In this document: in pieces, positions 1-35,300 of the stretch
How the letters are laid out: every line of letters begins with the position of its first letter
Position numbering within the stretch: position 1 is the stretch's first letter
DNA from: an uncultured bacterium
GTDB taxonomy: Bacteria > Cyanobacteriota > Vampirovibrionia > Gastranaerophilales > Gastranaerophilaceae
Length of the DNA: 64,000 nt
Direction of reading: 5' to 3'
NCBI GenBank assembly: GCA_949284985.1
Contig: CASDWY010000024.1
Span: 1-64,000 of the forward strand
Notes under the pieces: generated by a model
The model's input: the letters and a program-made list of their open reading frames with translations, nothing else
Database searches by the model: none
Told to the model about the DNA's origin: nothing
Translations under genes and position numbers: made by a program

Positions 1-51
1 GACTTTTGTTCACATATGTAGTTAAATATTGTTTGAATATGGAGGTATCAT
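1..51 (+). repeat. Conserved pseudopilin upstream segment, copy 1
   Basis: These 51 bases are identical to 34396-34446, directly upstream of the second pseudopilin gene. The segment carries the GGAGG ribosome binding site and stays open in the frame that ends at a TGA just inside the pilin gene (60-62). The repeat probably extends left of the window edge, where the rest of the leader would lie. Confidence 0.85.
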
Positions 52-840
52 ATGAAGTTTGACAGTTATATCACTAGCAGTACTAAAATAGCTTATACAG
101 TTAAAATTAATACTAAAAAATCTATTTTTGATAAGTTTTATCTAGAAAAAGCCGCTTTTACTTTAGCTGAAACATTAATCACTCTCACTATTATCGGTGT
201 TGTTGCTGCTTTAACCATTCCTAATTTAATCTCTAGCTATCAAAAACATACCTACGTTGTTGGGCTTAAAAAAGCCTACTCTCAACTTCAAAATGCTATG
301 AAGATGATTCCTATTACTCAAGGTTGTCCGGCTGGGGATTTTGACTGTGTTGGGTGGAATGACTGGGGCAAAGTCACAAACATTGATGGGCAGGAGTTTG
401 ATGGAGATCTAGAAAATAAACGTTTATATCTTCTATCTAAACAGTTTAAAATTAATAAATTATGTTACGACTACTCAACTGAACCAGAATGTGTTAAAGC
501 TAGAGACATATTAGACACCAGTTTTGCTTTATTCATTACAAATGATGGGATGATTTATTCATCATTTGGTATTGATATAAACGGTTTTAAAGGTCCTAAT
601 AAGTGGGGAAGAGATAAATTTATATTTACTACTATACAATCCTACAATAGATATGGTATTCCTCAAGGCACAGTTCTTCCTGTAGGCTCAAAATTACTTG
701 CTGATCTACACCAAAACAACTATTATGGAAACTACTGGAGAAATACAAACTGGTGCACTACAGAAAATGCTAACAAAGGAAATCATTATGCACAATTCTG
801 CACAGGCAGAGTTTTGGAAGAAGGTGCGATGAATTATTAG
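52..840 (+). CDS. Type IV pilin-like/pseudopilin with large C-terminal domain
   Basis: A 262-residue prepilin-like protein. Residues 1-35 form an unusually long basic leader, then AFTLAETLITLT opens a hydrophobic helix (about 36-58) ending in IPNLIS. Glu5 of the mature protein is kept, but the residue before the presumed cleavage site is Ala instead of the usual Gly. The ectodomain has at least six Cys, suggesting disulfides, and ends in CTGRVLEEGAMNY. A second gene at 34447-35238 encodes a close paralog with the same leader and helix but a diverged middle. Known for the family: prepilin peptidase processes such proteins, which assemble into type IV pili or type II-like pseudopili. No assembly ATPase or secretin is nearby. 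The start at 52 is set by GGAGG six bases upstream. Confidence 0.85.
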   Translation: MKFDSYITSSTKIAYTVKINTKKSIFDKFYLEKAAFTLAETLITLTIIGVVAALTIPNLISSYQKHTYVVGLKKAYSQLQNAMKMIPITQGCPAGDFDCVGWNDWGKVTNIDGQEFDGDLENKRLYLLSKQFKINKLCYDYSTEPECVKARDILDTSFALFITNDGMIYSSFGIDINGFKGPNKWGRDKFIFTTIQSYNRYGIPQGTVLPVGSKLLADLHQNNYYGNYWRNTNWCTTENANKGNHYAQFCTGRVLEEGAMNY

Positions 841-33978: not shown

Positions 33979-34242
33979 ATTTTATTTTTAATAATATGAA
34001 AATTTTTGTCAATGTTCATACCAATTAGCCTATTTGATAATATAAACCTAATATGATTGTATTCCCATAAGTTTAGTAAGCTTTTTGAAAAAATATTTAA
34101 AACCTAACAAAAAATAATATATTTCTAAAATTCAATTGTTAATCTTTTATAATTAAACCTTTTAAAATAAATTTTAATATTATTGATTTTTTCACAAAAG
34201 TTTTGTAAAATAGAAAAGTAATACTTAAACAGGAGAGTTTTG
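33979..34242. other. AT-rich intergenic with leader promoter
   Basis: A stretch with no gene, holding at its right end a promoter-like TTGATT (34183-34188), a 17-base spacer and TAAAAT (34206-34211). This would drive the leader ORF and second pseudopilin. Nothing else recognised. Confidence 0.5.
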
Positions 34243-34323
34243 ATGCACCTTAATTTTAATATAATTAATGAGTTAAAACACACTCCCATTGTACATTTAA
34301 CTTGCCCCCCCCCCCGATACTAA
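34243..34323 (+). CDS. Leader ORF interrupted by a poly-C tract
   Basis: The ATG at 34243 has an excellent AGGAG site 7 bases upstream and a promoter at 34183-34211. As sequenced (11 C at 34305-34315) the ORF ends after 26 residues at TAA 34321-34323. Adding one C would open a 71-residue ORF running to the TGA at 34455-34457, 11 bases inside the pseudopilin gene, with a hydrophobic stretch FLCGLLFTYVV. Ten C would give 28 residues. The tract may therefore be a frame switch, or a sequencing error in a homopolymer. Confidence 0.4.
   Translation: MHLNFNIINELKHTPIVHLTCPPPRY
34305..34315 (+). repeat. Homopolymeric tract of 11 C
   Basis: The only long C run in this AT-rich window. It sits inside the leader ORF upstream of the pseudopilin gene. 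Such tracts slip during replication. Confidence 0.9.
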
Positions 34324-34362
34324 GTCGTAGCAAGGGTTTTAAGGATTTAGCAAGTTGTTTTT

Positions 34363-34390
34363 CAAGCCAAGTGATTAGGCTTGATTTTTT
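34363..34390 (+). terminator. Terminator-like hairpin in the pseudopilin leader
   Basis: CAAGCC-9 bases-GGCTTG followed by A and six T. It lies between the poly-C tract and the pilin start, so it may act as an attenuator controlled by translation of the leader ORF. The stem is only 6 bp. Confidence 0.4.
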
Positions 34391-34395
34391 ATGTG

Positions 34396-34446
34396 GACTT
34401 TTGTTCACATATGTAGTTAAATATTGTTTGAATATGGAGGTATCAT
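34396..34446 (+). repeat. Conserved pseudopilin upstream segment, copy 2
   Basis: Identical over 51 bases to window positions 1-51, including the GGAGG site. Similarity continues at lower identity into the coding sequence. Confidence 0.85.
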
Positions 34447-35238
34447 ATGAACTTTGACAGTTATATAACAAGCGGTACTAAAACAGCTTTTACAGTTGAT
34501 GTAAATCAAAAACTTATTAAATATAATAAGTTTAGCCTAAAAAAAGCTGCTTTTACTTTAGCTGAAACTTTAATTACTCTCACTATTATTGGTGTTGTCG
34601 CTGCTTTAACTATTCCTAATTTAATCTCTAAATACCAAAAACATACCTACGTTGTCGGGCTTAAAAAAGCATACTCTCAACTTCAAAATGCTGTTAAAAT
34701 GATTCCTATTACTCAAGGTTGTCCTGCTGGAGATTTTGACTGTGCAGGGTGGAATGATGAATGGGATAAAGCCACAAACATTGAGGGGCAGGAGTTTAAT
34801 GGACGTATATACAACAAACGTACATATCTTCTATCTAAACAGTTTAAAATTAATAAATTGTGTTACGGGGGCTCAACTGATGAAATATGTAAAAAAATTG
34901 AAAATATTCCCACATGGAGTTTTGATTCTGCTTTTATTACAAATGATGGTATGATTTTTTCATCTTCTGGTGTTGACATCAATGGTTTTAAAGGTCCAAA
35001 TAAATGGGGACGTGATCAATTCGCCTTTGAAATTAACTCATCCCCTTGGAATTCCTATCAAGGTATCATTCTACCTTTGGGCTCAAAATTATTGGCTGAT
35101 ATACATGGTGAAGAATACTACTGGAGAAATAATAACCAATGTACAACTGAAAATGTTAATAAAGGTACTGGTACTGATTGGTATGGGCGAGGCGCTTGCA
35201 CAGGACGGGTGTTAGAAGAAGATGCGATGAATTATTAG
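34447..35238 (+). CDS. Type IV pilin-like/pseudopilin, paralog of the gene at 52
   Basis: A 263-residue protein with the same plan as the first pseudopilin: 35-residue leader, Ala before the presumed cleavage site, helix from FTLAETLITLTIIGVV, then a Cys-containing ectodomain. Residues 34-90 and blocks such as LLSKQFKINKLCY, GFKGPNKWGRD, LPxGSKLLAD and CTGRVLEE are shared. The stretches between them (about 100-125, 140-160 and 190-215) differ strongly. That mosaic suggests selection for surface variation or gene conversion. GGAGG six bases upstream fixes the start. It is preceded by the leader ORF and poly-C tract and followed by a terminator. Confidence 0.85.
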   Translation: MNFDSYITSGTKTAFTVDVNQKLIKYNKFSLKKAAFTLAETLITLTIIGVVAALTIPNLISKYQKHTYVVGLKKAYSQLQNAVKMIPITQGCPAGDFDCAGWNDEWDKATNIEGQEFNGRIYNKRTYLLSKQFKINKLCYGGSTDEICKKIENIPTWSFDSAFITNDGMIFSSSGVDINGFKGPNKWGRDQFAFEINSSPWNSYQGIILPLGSKLLADIHGEEYYWRNNNQCTTENVNKGTGTDWYGRGACTGRVLEEDAMNY

Positions 35239-35250
35239 TTCACATAAAAT

Positions 35251-35280
35251 AAAAGCGAGGCTTAAAAAAGCCTCGCTTTT
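35251..35280. terminator. Bidirectional intrinsic terminator
   Basis: Hairpin AAAAGCGAGGC and GCCTCGCTTTT with an 8-base loop, between the convergent pseudopilin and adhE genes. Confidence 0.88.
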
Positions 35281-35300
35281 GATTTTTATATTAAAACAAA

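Follow-up and report, generated by a model that had tools for sequence, protein, structure and literature searches.

The window analysed here, 64,000 nt in length, belongs to contig 24 of a 1.78-Mb genome (35 contigs, 99.9% complete, 32% GC), whose nearest named relatives are Candidatus Gastranaerophilales, gut bacteria that are non-photosynthetic relatives of the cyanobacteria. It carries a type IV prepilin gene preceded by a short leader ORF with a poly-C tract, and the features concerned are the following:

1-840 (+): copy cut by the contig start, with the last 55 nt of a leader followed by its pilin (52-840)
34183-34211 (+): promoter-like, sigma-70-like TTGATT-17-TAAAAT, from a consensus scan; in all aligned leader copies
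34231-34235 (+): Shine-Dalgarno AGGAG of the leader ORF, from the sequence; retained in all copies
34243-34323 (+): leader ORF as assembled, with C11 and thus in closed phase; 26 codons, stop TAA at 34321-34323
34243-34457 (+): leader ORF in open phase (one more C); 71 codons, stop TGA; frame open in one phase in 28/28 readable copies
34305-34315 (+): poly-C tract, 11 C in this copy, 9-15 C in others
34316-34329 (+): closed-phase stops TAA and TAG directly 3' of the tract (ACTAAGTCGTAG); both in 28/28 copies
34362-34390 (+): hairpin resembling an intrinsic terminator, TCAAGCC-9 nt-GGCTTGA (stem-loop 34362-34384) then TTTTTT; stem -8.8 kcal/mol, intact in 24/24
34390-34412 (+): second hairpin, stable in some copies only and outside the core claim
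34436-34440 (+): pilin Shine-Dalgarno GGAGG, from the sequence, within the open-phase leader ORF
34447-35238 (+): prepilin of 263 aa, with a 34-aa extension before the motif AFTLAETLITL; TIGR02532 prepilin N-terminal domain above cut-off
35250-35290 (+): terminator 3' of the pilin gene, 14-bp stem

A first-pass annotation had described a leader ATG with an AGGAG site behind a promoter, and this was confirmed (ATG at 34243); the truncation that it placed after 26 codons, at the 11-C run, was exact in coordinates and counts. The same annotation held that one added C would yield a 71-codon ORF ending 11 nt inside the pilin gene, and this is indeed so: the open-phase TGA at 34457 lies 11 nt beyond the first base of the pilin ATG (34447), and the ORF contains the hydrophobic stretch that had been reported (LDFLCGLLFTYVV). 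The tract is the only C or G run of at least 7 in the window, where 0.01 runs of 9 are expected in shuffles. Between leader and pilin, the consensus scan of the window found no promoter-like match on the + strand.

Besides the TIGR02532 match, PF07963 was above cut-off in a six-frame search of the genome and slightly below it, at 20.3 bits, with the window protein alone. A low-confidence model places a hydrophobic helix (45-90) after the prepilin motif, as required of a type IV prepilin, and fold comparison (model pLDDT 61) gave weak pilin matches only, none with E <=0.001. The genome holds 50 prepilin-motif matches and one prepilin peptidase, and at least 17 pilin paralogs have a common N-terminal part and end (GRVLEE..MNY) with a variable middle.

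Copies of the leader in the genome

The first-pass annotation had suggested a search for the same leader before other pilin genes, and this search revealed about 31 copies of the unit formed by promoter, leader ORF and C-tract, with a type IV prepilin gene 3' of every copy wherever the contig extends far enough. Leader DNA was found at 40 places, 32 of them with a leader start; C11:2551, where the leader is fused directly to the pilin, was left out to give 31 copies with a separate leader. Every copy has a C-tract and a start codon with AGGAG, which is ATG except for a TTG in one copy, translation itself being inferred. The common unit starts at the -35 box, and further upstream the DNA is unrelated from copy to copy. 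At random, about 0.2 C runs of at least 9 would be expected in the genome, and 33 were found: 29 in a separate leader, two in direct pilin fusions and two elsewhere, by our own count. Leader blocks are mosaic, QVI/HIM and GLLFT/EFLFS being present in all four combinations, and therefore the copies recombine. Many contigs end within leader or pilin, and these repeats probably broke up the assembly; repeats of this type explain why assemblies of such genomes break at pilin leaders.

A C-tract leader is fused in frame to the pilin in L038 (tract at 441, -) and L103 (tract at 1782, +), the former open at C14 and the latter closed at C12. At L096:1977, an in-frame C9 run is found in a 311-codon ORF that is polyprenyl synthase-like by eye. 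A G13 tract lies near codon 810 of an 872-codon ORF that contains a prepilin motif (L095:1564-4182, -; G000 C15 near 65239), and G12 or G14 would remove the last part of this ORF. At L097:2061, where the contig ends at the tract, the sequence becomes garbled and G-rich, which is probably an artefact of assembly.

Tract length and phase were surveyed in the 28 copies readable beyond the tract, and the differences are those between paralogs within one metagenome assembly. The tracts contain 9, 11, 12, 13, 14 or 15 C and all three phases are found, so that tract length shifts the reading frame of the leader product across all three, as required of a simple-sequence contingency locus. In the open phase, the leader reaches the pilin start in 28 of 28 copies with about 71-73 codons (77 in one copy); in the two other phases it has 26-30 codons and a stop no more than 14 nt after the tract, and a diverged copy (ACTAAGCCATAG) also keeps both closed-phase stop codons. 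Indels keep the open frame in register, with lengths divisible by three, and the leader stop lies 11 nt past the pilin ATG in 17/18 copies. As assembled, 9 copies are open and 18 closed (27 copies), the split expected by chance for a freely slipping tract. The five closest copy pairs, with two flank differences each, differ by 0, 1, 1, 1 and 2 C, that is, in four of the five pairs. Judging from these sequences, the C-tract probably slips in length and would thereby switch the pilin on and off; the lengths of individual tracts may still be wrong in the assembly.

A stop-free open frame is by itself weak evidence (P about 0.2). No purifying selection on the leader peptide was seen before the tract, where 5 of 23 substitutions are silent, and no codon-position bias was seen in leader substitutions after it; a peptide without selection is what would be expected if the act of translation alone matters.

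Each of the 24 complete copies has the hairpin and its T-run in the interval that separates tract and pilin, and termination activity is inferred. With its 7-bp stem and 9-nt loop the hairpin is short and weaker than the terminator 3' of the pilin; it was found with our own scan, which allows loops of up to 10 nt, and is missed by a standard scan (loops <=8). Such sites number five per strand in the window, compared with 0-1 in shuffles, and none of the ten on both strands lies within an ORF of at least 130 codons. A leader of the window copy in closed phase would end 31 or 38 nt upstream of the hairpin, and one in open phase 96 nt past the hairpin start. An analysis of covariation had no informative sites, the stem being invariant across copies, and an Rfam search of the leader matched no family. 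The second hairpin is absent in about half of the copies.

Tracts in related genomes

Among 146 family genomes, 117 carry C or G runs of at least 10, with more than 100 in some. In a genome of the same genus (G002), 13 of 16 tracts lie directly within the prepilin N-terminal extension, before FTLAE, and in genome G008 all 20 tract places fetched are within that extension. The nearest 80 named pilin loci have a C or G run of at least 8 upstream in 42 cases, of which 41 have a phase in which the prepilin is open across the tract. When a start site was required, 10 of 72 tract-in-prepilin loci (G002, G008 and named loci) were open as assembled, which is below one third. On the coding strand, the tract is C in some relatives and G in others at the same place, and this argues for a role in the frame. 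Where relatives carry the tract within the pilin gene, 60 stretches from tract to pilin were scanned and none had a terminator.

The leader itself was not found outside its own genome in the sets searched, and length variation has been seen only between paralogs. Its exact pattern was absent from the viral and genome contigs searched, and the leader protein had a strong match only in its own genome among 288 family genomes. Six other genomes with weak matches to the leader protein were set aside, the arrangement of tract, leader and pilin being absent from them. The CPPPP...SRSKGF of the leader resembles the tract region of prepilins (CPPPPQKLASNKGF in G002 and ACPPPPRKLKRSKGF in C35 of this genome). 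From comparisons of this kind, we infer that in this species the switch moved from the cleaved leader of the prepilin itself into a separate attenuator leader, and a phase-variable prepilin arsenal looks family-wide.

Two other arrangements were seen. In L187, L218, L236 and L246 the prepilin motif is duplicated in a long N-terminal extension (FTLAEGATHV...AFTLAE), and L182, L201, L216, L219 and others have apparent translated palindromic repeats (e.g. HPEVPEARHH...KQVQHD) in long extensions that separate G-tract and pilin.

Proposed phase-variable attenuation and its alternatives

We believe, with moderate confidence and on sequence evidence only, that a phase-variable transcription attenuator precedes each of about 31 prepilin genes. 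Transcription would begin at the promoter (34183-34211) and the leader ORF would be translated through the C-tract. With a closed-phase length, the ribosome would stop no more than 14 nt past the tract and the hairpin at 34362-34384 would fold freely, ending transcription and leaving the pilin off. With an open-phase length, ribosomes would traverse the hairpin and the pilin Shine-Dalgarno, overriding the transcription stop, stop within the pilin gene, 11 nt from its start, and be able to restart at the pilin ATG, so that pilin would be made. The anatomy, its conservation in about 30 copies and the diversity of length and phase between copies are direct observations; slippage in cells, termination, ribosome-driven read-through, expression and pilus function are inferred. 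The first-pass proposal that slippage in the leader affects the pilin, whether through attenuation or translational coupling, draws support from the roughly 30 paralogous copies with lengths of 9-15 in all three phases, from a conserved hairpin that would be translated only in the open phase, and from the G/C tracts in the prepilin leaders of relatives, slippage and effect on expression being inferences in this case too.

Translational coupling alone, with an open leader delivering ribosomes to the pilin start and a hairpin that is not a working terminator, would account for the 11-nt overlap of leader stop and pilin ATG in 17/18 copies and is favoured by a pilin start codon region able to fold. 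We nevertheless consider it unlikely, albeit worth keeping in mind, since hairpin and T-run are retained in 24/24 copies, sites of this type are rare by chance, and the pilin's own good GGAGG site should make coupling unnecessary. The mosaic leader blocks in all four combinations, together with the variable middle that the pilins carry within a shared frame, could point instead to a tract acting mainly as a recombination or G-quadruplex site for pilin shuffling, as in gonococcal pilE. However, the relatives have C or G tracts at the same place with one phase opening the prepilin, which a strand-specific structure would not do, and we give this possibility very little weight.

Homopolymers can cause ribosomal frameshifting and RNA polymerase slippage, and on this general ground a tract of fixed length might be a site of one or the other, both leader lengths being always made. 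Near-identical copies range in length from 9 to 15 and cover all three phases, which does not fit such a fixed site, and we find this reading just as improbable as the shuffling site. As to a homopolymer error of sequencing or assembly, which the first-pass annotation took for the main alternative, this is a metagenome assembly, its contigs break within the repeats, some of them at the tract, and the end of L097 is garbled there. Yet the position of the tract in prepilin genes is common to some 30 copies and to many independent genomes, so that the existence of the tract is not an error; error is excluded as the sole cause, and of all the explanations it is the one that we find hardest to credit.

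Attenuation at each copy can be extended to a combinatorial pilus coat, in which about 31 prepilins with variable middles, each with its own phase-variable attenuator, would derive from a family-wide ancestral switch in the cleaved leader of the prepilin. We regard the case for this extension as evenly balanced; if it is true, each cell would display its own subset of pilins.

Comparison with known systems

On/off switches made by poly-G/C tracts within surface genes are known from Neisseria opa and pilC, Campylobacter and Helicobacter. Shared with those switches are a slippage-prone repeat close to the 5' end, in a segment that is removed as the protein matures, and, as for opa, a large set of paralogs that are switched individually. 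In contrast, the window tract lies outside the surface gene, whereas related Gastranaerophilales and two genes of this genome have the tract inside. In trp-type attenuation, the folding of a terminator depends on leader-peptide translation. Leader translation is proposed to control the terminator here as well, but the signal would be tract length, a DNA change, and not the stalling of ribosomes on a scarce tRNA.

The closest parallel is in the pil1 and pil3 loci of Streptococcus gallolyticus, where five-base GCAGA repeats lie in a leader-peptide gene (Danne et al. 2014, PMC3894217). There, pilus expression is low in most cells when the leader ends at least 28 nt before the terminator and high when the leader reaches it, as demonstrated by terminator-deletion and start-codon mutants, and bet-hedging of the surface pilus was proposed (PMC3894217). 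As in pil1, the repeat is within a leader ORF that has its own start signals (its translation being inferred here), a terminator-like hairpin stands ahead of the pilus gene, and the closed-phase stop is well before the hairpin (31/38 nt here, at least 28 nt there), with the open-phase stop in or past it. The two differ in that a single-base C tract in about 31 copies takes the place of GCAGA repeats at two loci, that the products are type IV prepilins and not sortase-built Gram-positive pili, and that the leader overlaps the pilin start, whereas the streptococcal one ends in or near the hairpin.

We found no paper on phase variation in Gastranaerophilales in the open-licence literature, and, as far as we found, phase-variable pilus attenuation is known from one streptococcal species, at two loci. 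A second case of this kind, apparently independent and here multiplied into about 31 parallel copies that rely on a single-base tract, would demonstrate that the trick evolves repeatedly and scales up. It also points to large-scale phase variation of pilins across the Gastranaerophilales.
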